Shown here one piece after another: positions 3,767-21,901 of a stretch of 22,826 nucleotides of DNA. The notes under the pieces were generated by a model that made no database searches, was not told where the DNA came from, and saw only the letters and a program-made list of their open reading frames with translations. The stretch's first letter is position 1, and each line of letters begins with the position of its first letter. The DNA lies in the IMG/VR virus record IMGVR_UViG_3300025907_000030, positions 1 through 22,826 of that record; one strand, written 5' to 3'. Position numbers and translations under genes: made by a program. This DNA comes from a virus.

Positions 3767-4060
3767 TTGTTTTCTAAAATTGCCGAATGGGGTTCTGCGG
3801 CGGCCGGGACTGGCATTGCCTTTTGCATTGCCTTGATACTTATTATTGTATGGATAATATCCGGACCAATATTTAATTGGTCAGATACTTGGCAACTGGT
3901 GATCAATACCGCTACAACAATCATCACGTTTCTAATGGTGTTCTTATTACAGCACACGCAAAATCGCGACACCAATGCAATTCAATTAAAACTTGATGAA
4001 TTAATTCGCGCCAGTGAAAGAGCCGATAATAGAGCAATTGGTATTGAGAAACGCATCTGA
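3767..4060 (+). CDS. low-affinity iron permease family-like membrane protein (97 aa)
   Basis: The 97-aa protein starts at TTG 3767, immediately after the preceding stop. It has two transmembrane helices, about residues 14-35 and 44-62. The stretch FNWSDTWQLVINTATTI, then TFLMVFLLQHTQNRD and later QLKLDELIRA, is the hallmark of the low-affinity iron permease family (Pfam Iron_permease, PF04120) as I know it. Bacterial members are somewhat longer, so this is a compact version missing some of the C-terminal tail. Transport activity is poorly established for bacterial members. It is the last gene of the rightward block. In a phage it could be cargo affecting host metal uptake or a repurposed small membrane protein. 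Confidence 0.8.
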   Translation: MFSKIAEWGSAAAGTGIAFCIALILIIVWIISGPIFNWSDTWQLVINTATTIITFLMVFLLQHTQNRDTNAIQLKLDELIRASERADNRAIGIEKRI

Positions 4061-4080
4061 TGTCAAGTAATACAAATGAA

Positions 4081-4112
4081 AAGCGCACCAACAACTAAAT
4101 GTTAGTGCGCTT
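4081..4112 (-). terminator. intrinsic terminator of the leftward transcript
   Basis: Arms 4081-4093 and 4100-4112 form a 13-bp stem around a 6-base loop. One position is C.A on the + strand but G.U in a - strand RNA. The - strand RNA runs from the stem into UUUUC (the end of the stem plus 4078-4080), a short U-tract. It may also slow rightward transcription leaving the gene that ends at 4060, but the + strand has only two Ts after the stem. Confidence 0.7.
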
Positions 4113-4114
4113 CC

Positions 4115-4312
4115 CGCGCGTCCATCGAATATGAGTAGTTTGTTCCTCGCGCGCCAATCATACCCGGCCCGAACTTATGCTCCGCAGCATACATTTAGTT
4201 CGTTGATCGCCTCTACGATACCGAGCAGGATCATCTATTTACATAAGTAAATAGCTCTCTGCTGCGGAAGTAGAAGCGATCTAGGCGTCGGACGCGCGAG
4301 GAAGCGCAACTA
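4115..4312 (-). ncRNA. candidate multi-helix structured RNA between the convergent gene blocks
   Basis: No gene lies in 4061-4355. A closing stem pairs 4136-4140 + 4143-4153 with 4293-4303 + 4308-4312 (5 bp plus 11 bp, split by an internal loop). Inside it are hairpin A (4170-4181 with 4186-4191 and 4197-4202) and a long arm B: 4205-4216 with 4270-4281, 4221-4228 with 4259-4267, and tip stem 4235-4242 with 4247-4254. Arm B has a C.A mismatch (4211/4275) that becomes G.U on the - strand, as in the adjacent terminator, so a - strand RNA is favoured. It could be a 3' UTR protecting the helicase mRNA, a processed small RNA, or a DNA cruciform or origin. I recognise no known RNA family. Confidence 0.6.
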
Positions 4313-4355
4313 TCCTTATAGAGAAATACCTAGGTCGCGTCGAGTAACGATACCG

Positions 4356-5807
4356 CTATTCCTCTAAAAATCTTACGACGTCAGTCAAATTACGAAACGC
4401 TATTGAATCTTTCTGCTTATTCAACAGTGCTCTCAACAATTTATCATCTACAGTATTAGGCACTACCATATCATGATATGTTACTTTATCGTTTTGACCA
4501 ATACGATGGTTGCGATCTTCTGCCTGAATTCTATCGGTAGCCGACCAACTATTGCTGTAAAAGATAGTTGTTGTTGCTTCATTGAGCGTTAGTCCTATTC
4601 CGCCAGTAGCAGTGGTCATTACTAGAGCCTTCAAATGAGGTTCTTTTCTCCAACGATCTATTTCCGCCATACGATTGTTACCATCAACTAATGATGATAT
4701 ACCAATAGAACCAATACCAGCATTGGCTAAAGCTAATACCACCAATTCTACATCTTTAATGAAACGACAAAATACAATCACCTTGCTACTGGCCTCATCG
4801 ACTATTTCAGCCACGTATGATGCTCTATTGGATGGTATTGTTTCGACGTGTTGTCTAGACAATAAATATTGCGTTTTACCGTCTGATTGAATTCTTTCAG
4901 AACTATTCAAGTGACCACAAAGTATTTGTTGTAGTCGTATTATTCTAGTCACAGCCATTGTTGCATCTACGATGGTTCCATTCTTCAACTCAATTATCAA
5001 TTCTTCTTCTAGTTGCCGATATAATTTAAATTGCTCCATAGTCGGCGATATTTCATGTCTCACATATACTTTATCAGGCAAGTCTAAACAATCCTTCTTG
5101 CGCTTAGAATAAATATGAGGTGCAATATTTTTGGCCAATATAGTTTCGTTTCGGTATCCTTTGATCTCTCTATTCTCAAATCCACCCATTACACAAAACA
5201 TAGCCTTAAATGCGGTATATGATCTAGTGCCGATAATGTTCGGATCAAGAAACTTAAATTGAGAGAACAAATTTTCAATACCTTCTTCTGCCTCTGTTCC
5301 GGTAGCGATACGTCTGATCTTGGCAAATTTGCTCAACTCTATGGCTGATTTTGTTCTGATGGCGGTAGGATTTTTGATCTTATGGCTTTCATCTATAGCC
5401 AAATAAGCCTTTCTTCTGGCGCTAAGTATTCGTTTGAGATACTCCCGGCCAGTAGTTGTGGATATAGCTTCGATGTTCATCAAGAACACCAGTGTTTTTC
5501 CAGAGTTCAAAATGGCTTTGGTTTCCGCTTCACGTTTTTCTTTGTCTTGACCTGATCGCCAAATCTGTATTCCTATCTTCTCAATATTAGGACAATGAAT
5601 GAAAAACTCTGACTTCCAATTTACGTGAACGTTATTGGGAGCCAATATAATCGCACAATTGATTTCTTCTCGTTCAATCAGATGACTGATTTCATGGATA
5701 ATGATAGCTGATTTGCCGGTCCCCATCTCCATGAACCAAGCAAATGCAGTTTTATCGTATGCAACATTTAGTGCTTCTTTTTGATGGAAGTATAGTTCAG
5801 GTTGCAT
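4356..5807 (-). CDS. SNF2-type superfamily 2 DNA helicase/ATPase (483 aa)
   Basis: This is an ATP-driven DNA translocase, probably in phage replication, recombination or repair. The 483 aa carry Walker A MGTGKS (28-33), Walker B DESH (139-142), motif III as TGTE (169-172, where TGTP is usual), motif IV VIVFCRF (343-349), motif V TGGIGLTL (401-408), and motif VI QAEDRNHRIGQ (428-438) with the arginine fingers. The RNHRIGQ form is typical of SNF2 enzymes. Both RecA-like lobes are present with no extra domains, as in compact phage versions. Start ATG 5807 is preceded by AAGGA overlapping the stop of the zinc-ribbon gene 7 bases upstream. It is the last gene of the leftward replication block. Confidence 0.93.
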   Translation of the reverse strand: MQPELYFHQKEALNVAYDKTAFAWFMEMGTGKSAIIIHEISHLIEREEINCAIILAPNNVHVNWKSEFFIHCPNIEKIGIQIWRSGQDKEKREAETKAILNSGKTLVFLMNIEAISTTTGREYLKRILSARRKAYLAIDESHKIKNPTAIRTKSAIELSKFAKIRRIATGTEAEEGIENLFSQFKFLDPNIIGTRSYTAFKAMFCVMGGFENREIKGYRNETILAKNIAPHIYSKRKKDCLDLPDKVYVRHEISPTMEQFKLYRQLEEELIIELKNGTIVDATMAVTRIIRLQQILCGHLNSSERIQSDGKTQYLLSRQHVETIPSNRASYVAEIVDEASSKVIVFCRFIKDVELVVLALANAGIGSIGISSLVDGNNRMAEIDRWRKEPHLKALVMTTATGGIGLTLNEATTTIFYSNSWSATDRIQAEDRNHRIGQNDKVTYHDMVVPNTVDDKLLRALLNKQKDSIAFRNLTDVVRFLEE

Positions 5808-10861: not shown

Positions 10862-11144
10862 TGATATACTCCTGGTCCAGTTCCATTAGTATTGCGGAAT
10901 ATACTGCTAGATCATGTAGACTATCACAATGACCAGTTTGCCAATTAAAACTATATCTAATGATTTTGTTAATGATTTGCATAAGAATAGCAAATCTGTT
11001 GTAATCCTCAATTGTTTTGATTTCTAATCCATCTTTGAATAGTTGCTTAAATATTACGCCTGCTACCTTATAGTTGTCGCCATATATCGCATTGCGTTCA
11101 CGATATGTGGACAACATTTGTTCTATATTGTCTATTGCGTTCAT
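10848..11144 (-). CDS. conserved all-alpha phage protein, possibly MazG/DUF6378-like (98 aa)
   Basis: The 98-aa helical protein has segments RERNAIYGDNYKVAG, then NRFAILMQIINKIIRYSFNW, then HCDSLHDLAVYSAILMELD. The 'Y-G-D-N-Y ... KIxRY ... D-S-x-x-D-L-A-x-Y' layout recurs in phage proteins often grouped near the all-alpha NTP pyrophosphohydrolases, where acidic residues bind magnesium. I see the helices and the conserved Asp, but not a full EExxD metal motif, so hydrolase activity is uncertain. It overlaps the SDR gene stop by one base (TAATG). Neighbours in nucleotide metabolism fit a role in the nucleotide pool. Confidence 0.75.
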   Translation of the reverse strand: MNAIDNIEQMLSTYRERNAIYGDNYKVAGVIFKQLFKDGLEIKTIEDYNRFAILMQIINKIIRYSFNWQTGHCDSLHDLAVYSAILMELDQEYINDVK

Positions 11145-11893
11145 TATCTTTGTCCACCAGTAAGATCTATGTTCCCTCCACTCAAGTAATCAGCTTTGCC
11201 GCTAACTAGGAAAGCCACTAGTTCGGCAATATCAGTTGATTGTAGCCAGTTAAGTCTAGGTAATCCGTGTCCCCAATATTGTTCTGCTTCATCTCTGGTT
11301 AAGTTACGGTATCGTTGTAGATCAACTATAGTTTTTTCCGTCATTGGAGTTCCTTCAGTATTACTTGGATGTATACAGAATACATTATAGTTCTTGGGTG
11401 CCAATTCGTAAGCGATACATCTAGCGAAATGAGCCAATCCAGCCTTAGCTGCGCAATATGGCGCCGAACCATTAAGCACTGATCTATACGCCATAGACCC
11501 AATAAATACAATATATTTCGGCCACGGATTATTGATCGTATTTTGCACGAAATGTTTAGCGGCCAACATTGATACCGATAAGTTGACAAATACTGACTCT
11601 ATGATTTCTTTGTCGGGTTGATTTTCAATCCAGTCTAGATGAGTATAACCATTGGCCAATACTATAGTTGATAAATGATTACCATGTTCCGCTAACGCAA
11701 ATGGACTCCAATTTTGCTTTTCAAATTCAGTTACAGTCCATAGTTTTTTTCTCAATAATTTGGCTATATTGGCACCGATATTATTTTGTTTATCGCTACC
11801 AACTACAAATGCTTCATAGGGATATTCATTGTCAGATAGATACTTGGTTTTGGTTTCTTGCAGATAATTAATTGAGATGGCTTCTTTACTCAT
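11144..11893 (-). CDS. short-chain dehydrogenase/reductase (249 aa)
   Basis: This is an NAD(P)-dependent oxidoreductase of the SDR family. Numbering from the third of three consecutive ATGs (11893): an atypical dinucleotide-binding segment FVVGSDKQNNIGANIA (about 29-44), LANG (about 79-82, the usual NNAG), catalytic Ser in FIGS (133), and YCAAK with Tyr146 and Lys150. The C-terminus GGNIDLTGGQR is the classical SDR end. I chose the third ATG because GAGGAG then lies 8 bases upstream. The usual TGxxxGxG motif is degraded to GSDKQNNIG, so cofactor binding may be altered. Substrate unknown. It overlaps the upstream gene by 8 bases. Confidence 0.88.
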   Translation of the reverse strand: MSKEAISINYLQETKTKYLSDNEYPYEAFVVGSDKQNNIGANIAKLLRKKLWTVTEFEKQNWSPFALAEHGNHLSTIVLANGYTHLDWIENQPDKEIIESVFVNLSVSMLAAKHFVQNTINNPWPKYIVFIGSMAYRSVLNGSAPYCAAKAGLAHFARCIAYELAPKNYNVFCIHPSNTEGTPMTEKTIVDLQRYRNLTRDEAEQYWGHGLPRLNWLQSTDIAELVAFLVSGKADYLSGGNIDLTGGQR

Positions 11894-12047
11894 CATCATT
11901 CTCCTCTAACGGCGGCGTTAGTTCGATTATCCAATATTCCGTTAGATTTATTTCACCATATTCTTCTGCCGCCCTTTCATCTGGAAATGTTCCATATACA
12001 TCGAAACCAACTAGTGGATTGCCGGCTATTATTACATACATGTTCAT
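11886..12047 (-). CDS. small protein, function unknown (53 aa)
   Basis: The start ATG 12047 shares a base with the thyX stop (TAATG), and the GCCAGGAG word at 12050-12057 serves as its Shine-Dalgarno. The 53 aa (MNMYVIIAGNPLVGFDVYGT, then an acidic tail) resemble small beta-alpha phage proteins in which a residue run '...GPFxxxxEAxxY' forms one helix. Here it reads GTFPDERAAEEYGE. Function unknown. It ends in EENDDE and overlaps the SDR gene. Confidence 0.65.
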   Translation of the reverse strand: MNMYVIIAGNPLVGFDVYGTFPDERAAEEYGEINLTEYWIIELTPPLEENDDE

Positions 12048-12790
12048 TACTCCTGGCGAAGTATATCCAGATATTTCATTGCTGCCCAAGCCTCAGTTTC
12101 GTTTTGTGATTTACCTGTTTCTTTCACTTCTTTGTTCAGTTGAACAGTGAAATAACGTGACAACGCAATGAACGCATCACTATGTCTAGGCATGATAAAC
12201 GTTAGTGCCCAAGGCCATATTTTCAATACTTCTTCTACCATCAGCTTCAATACTTGAGCGTATTCATCTTGAACTCGTGGACTAGAGCGTTTCTTGACTA
12301 GATCAGAAAACGCCCTGAGATTCATCTTCATGCAGATATTGGTGAGAATATCAGTAGGCAATACACCACGAGCATCTTCTGGTTTCGCCCCAGCTTTTAT
12401 TAGATCGCCGTAACAATCACTAATCGCTATCATTTCTGCATCGTATAATTCTTTGGCAGCTTCGTTGTTCTCAATAGATGGTCCAACGTGATAATCGAAC
12501 CCAGTCATATCAACTATACGCATAGCCTGTTGGGCAAATGAAGCTGTTCTTGTCCTCACCAATTGATGAGTAAAGGCACGCGATACGCCTTCAATACAAA
12601 AGGTAAGGTCTACAAACTCCCATGAACTGGGAATTGTAGTTGACATATACTTTAATTCTTCCATCTTCTTTTCTCTCGGCCAGGAGCGTATGTCGGCCAT
12701 TCCTTTCGGACCCATATTGAGTCGAGTATTCTTGGTAAAGATGAGCAACTCTATGGCTTCTGGCGTGCAGGATATTACCGTGACTTTCAT
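12047..12790 (-). CDS. thyX: flavin-dependent thymidylate synthase ThyX
   Basis: It makes dTMP from dUMP with FAD, NADPH and methylene-tetrahydrofolate. The 247 aa contain the ThyX signature region as QLVRTRTASFAQQAMR (76-91), where the canonical RHRxxSxNxxSxR keeps the first two Arg, the Ser and the last Arg but has Thr for His80 and Gln/Ala at the Asn and second Ser positions. The same pattern is known in other phage ThyX proteins. The second dUMP-site region appears as RSSPRVQDEYAQ. Length is normal. ATG 12790 overlaps the stop of the FAD oxidoreductase (ATGA), coupling the two. It would support DNA synthesis independent of host thymidylate supply. Confidence 0.92.
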   Translation of the reverse strand: MKVTVISCTPEAIELLIFTKNTRLNMGPKGMADIRSWPREKKMEELKYMSTTIPSSWEFVDLTFCIEGVSRAFTHQLVRTRTASFAQQAMRIVDMTGFDYHVGPSIENNEAAKELYDAEMIAISDCYGDLIKAGAKPEDARGVLPTDILTNICMKMNLRAFSDLVKKRSSPRVQDEYAQVLKLMVEEVLKIWPWALTFIMPRHSDAFIALSRYFTVQLNKEVKETGKSQNETEAWAAMKYLDILRQE

Positions 12791-13713
12791 TGTGCGGTTT
12801 CCTTTCTGCGTTCATAGTTGTTTCGCTGAACAATCCATTTCGTTATCAGTCGTAAATCTTTCACCAAATCATCCAATAGTATTTGTCTCCAAGTAGCATA
12901 TCTCCCCAATGAATATACATTATGATTATCAGTAGCCCACATCATAAACGATTGCCGTTTATCATCCGATACCGGAATAATCTTGCCATAATTTTGTAGC
13001 TTTAATGCTTTTGATTTGATATAAACGTTAGCGTGATACCAGTTGGGCAACAACAAGTCCATATAATATTCCACTAATTCTTGATGATCCTCTAATGGTT
13101 CTGTAGCGAACTCTAAAGTCATTTTGTTACCAGTAATACTCACTCGATACGGATGGCTATCAATATAAGGAACATACAACGTTTGGTAGACATCGACATT
13201 CGCCAACTCTATATTGATAGTCCAAATAGGTTTATATTGGAAAGGAATAGCATGAGGATACTCTAGCATAATCATTAGTTCAGGCATAGGTATTGTAGAA
13301 ATAATAGGCCCATCTGCCGTATAGACCAAATCTTTCGCATCCATATTGTAAGTAATGTTTAGGTTATCGCTCAATGTAGAGATTAACCCGCCAGGAGCAA
13401 TGTATCGTTTCGATGGCGCTAGATTAATAATAGATCGCTCTGATACTTGTCCGGTGACCTTTATAGAATAGGCATTGAAATCTCGTATTGTTGGAGTATT
13501 GGTTATGATTCCACTTTCAGTCAACACACCTTTATAGACATTGACTTCTTTGAAAGGAAGCCCAGTAATCTGGGCTATTTCATTGCTACGGAAACGCAAT
13601 AATGCGCTATGATTATTGGGAAGTGATGATTGTTTCTCCACAATAATGGGTTTGAATTGTTGTAAGCTCCTGGCGGCGAGCAAACCGCTAAGTCCAGCGC
13701 CTAATATGATCAT
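12787..13713 (-). CDS. FAD/NAD(P)-binding oxidoreductase coupled to ThyX (308 aa)
   Basis: The N-terminus MIILGAGLSGLLAARSL (1-17) is a textbook Rossmann GxGxxG flavin-binding start, followed by an acidic residue at the end of strand 2 (IVEK). The C-terminal NVYSLGRYATWRQILLDD resembles the second FAD-contacting motif of amine-oxidase/UDP-galactopyranose-mutase-like flavoproteins. I chose ATG 13713, which overlaps the upstream stop (ATGA), over an ATG 15 bases earlier. Reaction and substrate cannot be read from sequence. It is translationally coupled to thyX, a flavoenzyme. Supplying reduced flavin or acting in the same pathway is a hypothesis only. Confidence 0.85.
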   Translation of the reverse strand: MIILGAGLSGLLAARSLQQFKPIIVEKQSSLPNNHSALLRFRSNEIAQITGLPFKEVNVYKGVLTESGIITNTPTIRDFNAYSIKVTGQVSERSIINLAPSKRYIAPGGLISTLSDNLNITYNMDAKDLVYTADGPIISTIPMPELMIMLEYPHAIPFQYKPIWTINIELANVDVYQTLYVPYIDSHPYRVSITGNKMTLEFATEPLEDHQELVEYYMDLLLPNWYHANVYIKSKALKLQNYGKIIPVSDDKRQSFMMWATDNHNVYSLGRYATWRQILLDDLVKDLRLITKWIVQRNNYERRKETAQ

Positions 13714-20364: not shown

Positions 20365-20598
20365 TGTTCCGTTCCTTTCTAGATCATTCTCCCCTCACCT
20401 TTCGCACTCTGGACTTGGGACCAGACGATGGCGGTTTAGAGAAGCCTCTAGGATCGCGCTAGAGGCGTAGGCTAGAGGATCCGCGCCTAGGGTAGCGGCC
20501 CCCTCCGTTCTACGGCCCTAGGATCGTCCCTAGGGCGTCTAGCGGGAGGCTCCCGCGCCTAGTCCTAGGCTACGCTCGCCTAGGCGCGGGAGGATAGG
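20365..20598 (-). other. 234-bp non-coding, CTAG-rich multi-hairpin region
   Basis: No gene is visible. It separates the 76-aa gene (stop 20599) from the 102-aa gene (ATG 20364). Stems: 20444-20451 with 20459-20466 (8 bp); 20515-20522 with 20529-20536 (8 bp); 20550-20562 with 20580-20592 (13 bp, exact). A competing inner pairing is 20564-20570 with 20578-20584. Between 20440 and 20600 the word CTAG occurs 11 times, against fewer than one expected. On the - strand side nearest ATG 20364 are the 20408-20425 stem-loop and the CTAGAAAGG leader. It may be an RNA structure, a protein-binding array or a recombination site. Confidence 0.65.
20408..20425 (-). promoter_or_regulatory. leader stem-loop, conserved-loop family member 1
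   Basis: TCTGG (20408-20412) pairs with CCAGA (20421-20425); the 8-base loop is ACTTGGGA on the + strand. It sits 44 bases before ATG 20364. Members 2 and 3 lie at 21210-21225 and 21642-21657. Confidence 0.55.
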
Positions 20599-20829
20599 CT
20601 AGAGCGGAGCGGAATCGTTATCCACATCCTCCCATTCGTTGACATGAGTATATCCGTCAACGATATTCGTGATCTTGGACATTACGAGTTCGGCTTGATG
20701 TGCCGCTCTAGCGACAGACACTAGATTATCGCCAGTTTCGCAAGTATTCAACGCATCTTGGATAGCGCGAATGAGCGCCTCCAACTTTGCGATATGAACG
20801 TCGCGTTGTTGTATCGGGGATTTAGCCAT
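20599..20829 (-). CDS. small helical protein, function unknown (76 aa)
   Basis: The 76-aa helical protein (MAKSPIQQRDVHIAKLEALI, then SVARAAHQAELVMSKITNIV) ends in an acidic tail (EWEDVDNDSAPL). ATG 20829 lies 8 bases inside the end of the zinc-binding gene. Third gene of a coupled three-gene cassette (21168 to 20599). The composition suggests a dimeric helical bundle. Function unknown. Confidence 0.7.
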   Translation of the reverse strand: MAKSPIQQRDVHIAKLEALIRAIQDALNTCETGDNLVSVARAAHQAELVMSKITNIVDGYTHVNEWEDVDNDSAPL

Positions 20830-21262: not shown

Positions 21263-21285
21263 TAGACATCAATCATTGTCAGTCA

Positions 21286-21606
21286 TCACTCGTTCCTCCC
21301 GTGCCACGTGCCGAGAGGATCATCATCCTCGCGGCTGGACAAGTAATTGGCGAATGCTTCTGCATCTTCACCAATCCTGATCTTGTCTTGGTGAATAAGC
21401 CACAGAACATCGTCACCACCAGCCTCAATTTGTTCATAATCAAGCACCATTGTATAGACATCGGCATGCTTAACCGACATCTTATTATGCTGCTCACGAG
21501 CAGCATCGATGGCCTCTTGTAGATCAGTAAAACCTTCGGCCCACCAATCTTGATTCTCAAGAGGATAGTCACCCACATAACTGGCGACTGTATAAAGTTT
21601 TTCCAT
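21286..21606 (-). CDS. acidic phage protein, function unknown (106 aa)
   Basis: The 106 aa begin MEKLYTVASYVGDYPLENQD, with helices around DLQEAIDAAREQHN, and end in an acidic stretch (SSREDDDP). The strongly negative charge is typical of host-takeover proteins or DNA mimics, but nothing more specific is visible. ATG 21606 follows CTAGAAAGG (21617-21625) and GGAACAAATGG. A single-gene cassette with a conserved-loop stem-loop in its leader (21642-21657). Confidence 0.7.
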   Translation of the reverse strand: MEKLYTVASYVGDYPLENQDWWAEGFTDLQEAIDAAREQHNKMSVKHADVYTMVLDYEQIEAGGDDVLWLIHQDKIRIGEDAEAFANYLSSREDDDPLGTWHGRNE

Positions 21607-21616
21607 TTGTTCCTAT

Positions 21617-21625
21617 CCTTTCTAG
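21617..21625 (-). promoter_or_regulatory. CTAGAAAGG leader motif (representative - strand copy)
   Basis: The exact 9-mer CTAGAAAGG occurs before seven - strand start codons (18055-18063, 18730-18738, 19740-19748, 20374-20382, 21179-21187, here, and 21912-21920) and before one + strand start (22569-22577). A one-mismatch copy is at 22496-22504. The AAGG half is a Shine-Dalgarno core; the conserved CTAGA in front is not needed for ribosome binding and needs another explanation. Confidence 0.7.
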
Positions 21626-21641
21626 ATTTAACGCACAATAT

Positions 21642-21657
21642 CTGGACTTGTGACCAG
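21642..21657 (-). promoter_or_regulatory. leader stem-loop, conserved-loop family member 3
   Basis: CTGG (21642-21645) pairs with CCAG (21654-21657); the 8-base loop is ACTTGTGA on the + strand. It lies 35 bases before ATG 21606, at nearly the same distance as the other two members. Confidence 0.55.
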
Positions 21658-21680
21658 CAGTCTTTCGACCGGTGCATTAA

Positions 21681-21698
21681 GCCGCTATTACTAGCGGC
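21681..21698 (-). terminator. GCCGCTA/TAGCGGC hairpin after the 64-aa gene
   Basis: A 7-bp perfect stem (21681-21687 with 21692-21698) with a TTAC loop, 8 bases past the stop at 21707. No U-tract follows. It contains CTAG, like the other intergenic hairpins. Confidence 0.55.
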
Positions 21699-21706
21699 CC
21701 ACTCTG

Positions 21707-21901
21707 CTAATCGCCATACTTAATAGCACCATTCAATTTAGAATATAGCGACTGATATTCACGCAATTCTTTGATCAATTCTCTCGCGCGACCAATATCA
21801 TCGTTTTCAACTGCAGTCGCGATCCAATTCTTTAGCGCGCTGCAATGGCTTTTGACTTGCCCAAACAACATAGCTGCTTCGCTATTATTTAGATTTACCA
21901 T
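21707..21901 (-). CDS. small helical protein, function unknown (64 aa)
   Basis: The 64 aa are almost all helical (MVNLNNSEAAMLFGQVKSHC, then RARELIKELREYQSLYSKLN), probably a two-helix hairpin. ATG 21901 follows CTAGAAAGG (21912-21920). It forms its own cassette between hairpins at 21681-21698 and 21975-22004. Function unknown. Confidence 0.7.
   Translation of the reverse strand: MVNLNNSEAAMLFGQVKSHCSALKNWIATAVENDDIGRARELIKELREYQSLYSKLNGAIKYGD

Follow-up and report, generated by a model that had tools for sequence, protein, structure and literature searches.

A strongly folding spacer with competing stems where two phage operons converge, a candidate composite transcript-end island

The window, by which we mean the whole analysed stretch of 22,826 nucleotides from the viral record IMGVR_UViG_3300025907_000030, contains a spacer on which two oppositely oriented gene blocks converge. 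The gene for an SNF2-type helicase (4356 to 5807, minus strand) was the terminal gene of the leftward operon, and the converging block ended with a gene (3767 to 4060, plus strand) for a small membrane protein of 97 amino acids that was assigned to PF04120 and PHROG 3485. The first-pass annotation had taken the latter for the last virion gene, which is incorrect, since the match to PF04120 (E 2e-44) relates the protein to membrane proteins of the "low affinity iron permease" family. Dozens of phage contigs that are otherwise unrelated also encoded relatives of this protein. The phage in the window was also recovered as identical contigs, the longest of which (G001, 45 kb) contained minus-strand genes at 1 to 21213 and 40311 to 45078 and plus-strand genes at 21888 to 40015. 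The minus-strand block is continuous if the phage genome is circular or permuted, as we infer, but the two blocks converge at the junction whether it is circular or not, and the element described here lies where both the helicase operon and its opposing operon come to an end. Elsewhere in the leftward operon, host-like metabolic genes for a FabG-like reductase (11144 to 11899) and a ThyX-type thymidylate synthase (12047 to 12790) were identified. Near the start of this operon, a Type-P5 twister self-cleaving ribozyme was located on the minus strand at 21642 to 21708 (Rfam score 51.2 bits, cut-off 37.6), overlapping the ORF call at 21279 to 21677.

Read from the minus strand, the spacer between positions 4115 and 4312 folds into a multi-helix structure of about 200 nucleotides. 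In the minimum-energy fold, an outer closing stem is formed by UAGUU at 4308 to 4312 and AACUA at 4136 to 4140, and is followed by an inner closing stem of 11 to 13 bp between 4303-4291 and 4143-4155. The closed region carries 2 arms, here called arm B and arm C. Arm B (4205 to 4281) consists of 3 stacked segments, namely a 12-bp helix (4205-4216 with 4270-4281), a middle segment and an 8-bp hairpin (4235-4242 with 4247-4254), whereas the side hairpin, arm C (4170 to 4202), consists of 6 + 6 bp, with 4170-4175 paired to 4197-4202 and an inner helix of 6 bp. The segment at 4191-4200 in arm C is also complementary to the loop of the adjacent terminator (4093-4102). The two-part closing stem, the side hairpin and the three-segment arm had all been proposed in the first-pass annotation, which rightly judged the region to be more elaborate than a simple terminator hairpin and to belong to no recognised family. 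A search of Rfam 15 (4,227 families) at gathering and loose thresholds gave no match to the region at E values up to 10, and no tRNA or tmRNA was identified in the element with ARAGORN.

The folded structure in the convergent spacer was confirmed by comparisons with shuffled sequences. For 271 nucleotides around the element, the predicted free energy of the minus strand was -110.4 kcal/mol, compared with a mean of -77.5 kcal/mol for the shuffles (z -6.7), and none of 200 shuffles was as good. The corresponding values for the plus strand were -94.5 and -65.7 kcal/mol (z -5.95), and a z value of -7.2 was obtained for the element with DNA parameters. The shuffles of the two strands also differed by about 12 kcal/mol, so the energy gap between the strands is mostly an effect of composition. 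The region of 262 nucleotides contained 7 perfect inverted repeats of at least 8 bp, as compared with a mean of 0.46 in shuffled sequences, none of which reached 7 in 300 trials. This was the highest density of inverted repeats in G001, where the mean was 0.82. In a plain energy scan of the same contig, the element came fifth among the 2,250 windows scanned, those ranked above it being overlapping windows from two other locations, and strong folds are thus not confined to the convergent junction.

It had been argued that mismatches which become G.U pairs on the minus strand point to RNA-level structure on the leftward transcript. The mismatch C4211.A4275 in arm B is indeed a G.U pair in minus-strand RNA, one pair of this type is also present in the adjacent terminator, and we noted a further U.G pair in the closing stem that works in minus-strand RNA only. 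The argument involves only 2 pairs and is weak in view of the equally strong DNA-parameter fold, and the strand assignment is unproven because the homologous element described below folds equally well from either strand.

The strand that opens the inner closing stem, here called A (UUCCUCGCGCGUCC, 4290 to 4303), was found from the inverted repeats and energy folds to have two alternative partners on the minus strand. In state I, A pairs with B (GGCGCGCGAGGAA, 4143 to 4155) through 13 pairs, including the one U.G pair. In state II, A extends to position 4308 (UGCGC) and pairs with a third copy, B' (GGACGCGCGGGAAGCGCA, 4106 to 4123), which shares positions with the 5' arm of the terminator, while X (GGGUAUGAU, 4157 to 4165) pairs with Y (CUCAUAUUC, 4127 to 4135). 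The A:B and A:B' helices are mutually exclusive. The competition for strand A had escaped the first-pass annotation, as had the finding that 4 of the 7 perfect inverted repeats represent alternatives to the minimum-energy fold, where 0.25 would be expected. The predicted energies of the two states were -110.1 and -108.0 kcal/mol, a gap of about 2 kcal/mol that lies inside the prediction error, and the simulated folding of a growing transcript went from A:B to A:B' and back again.

Immediately downstream on the leftward transcript, the terminator scan identified an intrinsic-terminator-like hairpin with a U-rich tail (4078 to 4115, minus strand), in which a G+C-rich hairpin of 16 pairs is followed by UUUUC; this signal accounts for only a part of the region. 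On the plus strand, CCCGCGCG follows the hairpin at 4081-4112 in place of the U run that a bidirectional terminator would have on both strands, and the scan of the window reported no plus-strand site at 4081-4112 and none for the rightward transcript.

The only homologue found was an element of 146 bp in the record IMGVR_UViG_3300036846_000061 (L007), located directly after a helicase gene whose product was 66% identical to that in the window. The two elements were matched by blastn at E 2e-13, with 68% identity over 111 nucleotides and 81% over 36 nucleotides. A covariance model built from L007 (R1) was weak, giving the window element no more than 11.5 bits (E 0.6), and the homology is therefore based on sequence similarity and position. 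Common to both phages were the junction GGCCGG(A)GUAUGAUUG and a block 5' of A, TCGTTACT-N19-CTCTATAAG.ATA.TTGC (4306 to 4350, minus strand), which directly follows the stop codon of the helicase gene. We considered CTCTATAAG as a promoter, but this is a weak candidate since the block also pairs, and the possibility that the element encodes a conserved small protein was rejected because the two phages share no reading frame there. The Rfam search with the L007 element returned only microRNA models far below the cut-off. Scanning viral contigs with patterns from the conserved blocks recovered no element beyond those of the identical phage and L007, and the further matches that were checked were unrelated and mostly coding. 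Searches via the polymerase, its bacterial relatives and the neighbouring membrane protein gave no further homologues, and those via the bacterial relatives returned only bacterial polymerases.

The comparison with L007 gave a divided answer to the expectation of compensatory changes in the stems: these were seen on both sides of the closing stem, whereas the internal arms B and C were not conserved and were replaced by one short hairpin. In the A:B helix, 12 of 14 columns were paired in both phages, and in the A:B' helix 11 of 13 comparable columns, with 3 both-side changes in each. Under independent drift of the partner strand, the chance of such agreement was estimated at p ~0.011 for A:B and ~0.023 for A:B'. 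The changes at positions 6 and 8 of A were matched in B as well as in B'. On this alignment, the closing-stem pairing is kept between the two phages, although two sequences cannot separate selection from copying. The X:Y pairs were also retained (8 of 9 in the window and 9 of 9 in L007), with GUAUGAUUG in X conserved. The L007 element folded with a z value of -4.53 on one strand and -4.65 on the other, and its two states had predicted energies of -52.6 and -54.4 kcal/mol, such that two exclusive folds of similar energy have been kept in both of the phages available. The A:B' pairing in L007 ends directly at UUUU, a weak U run (U4) with no local hairpin beside it. The terminator in L007 would therefore depend on A:B', whereas that in the window is compatible with either state, and in these predictions the two folds do not have opposite effects in the same sense across the homologues.

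The junctions of related phages were variable. In L009 and L010, which are sister phages of L007 with helicases 79% identical to its own, the stop codons of the helicase gene and the opposing gene overlapped and no element was present. The helicases of L008 and L011 were 98% identical, but the junctions differed, with a plain perfect 10-bp hairpin in the former and a 190-nt spacer containing a two-way, A/U-flanked hairpin terminator in the latter. Nothing comparable was observed at the junction of L125, and the weak model R1 found no copy elsewhere in the records of the related phages. Since the relatives contain nothing, a plain hairpin or a two-way terminator, the element is patchy and dispensable, and the junction turns over fast.

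The best explanation, to which we would assign roughly even chances, is that the region is a composite terminator or 3'-end island where two genome-length operons meet, and that it was probably rebuilt by inverted duplication. The leftward transcript of the helicase operon would pass the stop codon and fold into a long closed stem (A:B plus the outer pairs) carrying the arms, and would then meet the terminator hairpin and U tail (4115-4078), which would release the RNA. The folded stem would seal the 3' region of the mRNA and may help to prevent RNA polymerase from transcribing the opposing genes in the antisense direction. Inverted duplication at the DNA level has probably enlarged and renewed the sequence itself, and this history would account for the two competing partners of A and the many coexisting alternative pairings. 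The convergent operon ends, the leftward hairpin with its U tail, the strong fold, and the hairpins and terminators at the L008 and L011 junctions argue for this island, as do the both-side changes that keep A:B and A:B' and the position of the L007 A:B' helix against UUUU, while the excess of mutually exclusive inverted repeats (4 versus 0.25) speaks for the duplication. Counting against it, the terminator needs none of the 200 nucleotides upstream, no rightward terminator-like signal was found in the window, the U4 in L007 is weak, and L009, L010 and L125 manage with nothing at the junction. For phage tf, a predicted two-way terminator lies between the two converging units (PMC3517423). The convergent-operon terminators of the tf and LUZ24/PaP3 type resemble the element in their position and in the terminator-like hairpin, but they are about 40 nt long, whereas the element is about 230 nt and multi-helix, with a closing stem, alternative partners and a U tail on one strand only. 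If the terminator-island reading is correct, it illustrates the freedom with which phages remodel colliding operon ends, with nothing, a hairpin, a two-way terminator or a large fold.

That A tracks two partners makes a two-state RNA attractive, in which A:B forms early and is then invaded by B', together with X:Y, the choice controlling termination or the fate of the RNA. The two near-equal states in both phages, the exchange of A:B and A:B' in the growing transcript, the changes of A, B and B' in step and the retained X:Y helix are as this reading predicts. We nevertheless consider it unlikely: its logic is not conserved, the window terminator fitting either state while A:B' itself abuts the U run in L007, the downstream sequence is only antisense to the opposing genes and offers no obvious target to regulate, the distribution is patchy, and three matching copies are also expected from inverted duplication. 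Attenuators and the expression platforms of riboswitches likewise place one strand with two exclusive partners beside a terminator, but the element lies at an operon end and not upstream of a gene, its logic differs between the phages and it matches no Rfam aptamer. A bolder proposal is that the ends of convergent operons harbour a new class of phage RNA, conserved and bistable, one strand of which would have co-evolved with two exclusive partners and would time termination or sense the opposing polymerase or transcript; we regard this as improbable. A switch of this sort, if real, would represent RNA control of a new kind where two operons meet. Both-side stem changes can accompany three competing copies and are in themselves no proof of RNA function. 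Hairpins with apparent compensatory changes are known to arise and to be maintained through template switching (PMC8794818), and they share with the element the excess of inverted copies and the coordinated multi-base changes, although the element offers no intermediate states that would reveal single events. By this documented mechanism, repeated template switching could have made and corrected inverted repeats in a non-coding gap that serves for spacing only, which would agree with the patchy occurrence, the many alternative repeats, the similar fold strength on both L007 strands and with DNA parameters, and the comparable structured islands elsewhere in these genomes. We think this rather unlikely too, in that both helices, as well as the unpaired or weakly paired blocks CTCTATAAG and GUAUGAUUG, have been kept across a distance of 66% helicase identity.

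An independent small RNA, transcribed from a promoter of its own a short distance upstream of A, where TATAAG at 4320-4315 resembles a -10 box, would fit with the conservation of TCGTTACT-N19-CTCTATAAG immediately ahead of A in the two phages and would end at the terminator-like hairpin in the window. It seems a poor prospect, given that no -35 match lies at normal spacing, that the promoter scan reports none there and that the sister phages are without the element; moreover, the conserved block also makes up the outer part of the L007 stem, as indicated by a reverse-strand self-match, and need therefore not be a promoter. A DNA-level site to which a protein of replication, partition or recombination binds, or which is extruded as a cruciform, could account for the three copies of a motif of about 13 bp (two direct, one inverted) that change together between the phages, and for the DNA fold (z -7.2). 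Here, we recognised no AT-rich unwinding tract, the scanned proteins, many of which had no family match, included no initiator, HUH endonuclease, integrase or other protein matching an origin or cruciform site, and the sister phages replicate with the same polymerase and helicase set in its absence, which makes this reading very improbable. Like REP and BIME repeats at operon 3' ends, the element consists of folding intergenic inverted repeats after stop codons, but it is known from two phages only and lacks the several copies per genome that define REP/BIME or MITE-type repeats: a DNA search of its own record found one place, the flanking conserved motif occurred once in this phage, and R1 gave no second copy in the relatives.

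Other repeated and structured sequences were observed in these genomes. The 8-mer GCCAGGAG/CTCCTGGC was present in about 30 copies in the window and in all seven related genomes checked, at about 1 per 850 bases, in both orientations and inside as well as between genes (52 copies in 45 kb and 61 in 52 kb). Its 9-mer forms numbered 27 to 45 per genome in the four largest records, versus 0.2 to 0.3 expected, and were often paired into hairpins. This is a genome-wide signal, of which some copies look like ribosome-binding sites while most do not. The genomes of the phages represented by L007 and L010 (G002 and G004) contained the repeated palindrome CGTATATACG, the 9-mer CGTATATAC of which occurred in 25 to 26 copies per genome, often as intergenic hairpins. 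Finally, a very G+C-rich island of CCTAGGC palindromes at 20411-20670 in the window reached about -119 kcal/mol in 260 nucleotides (-115 kcal/mol on the window minus strand, which is the plus strand of G001, and -119 kcal/mol on the other strand). It had no Rfam match and folded more strongly per base than the element at 4115-4312. CCTAGG-rich islands were also located in G004 (at 13521) and in G002 (at 42361), the latter with about -126 to -132 kcal/mol and roughly as far from the helicase end as the island in the window.
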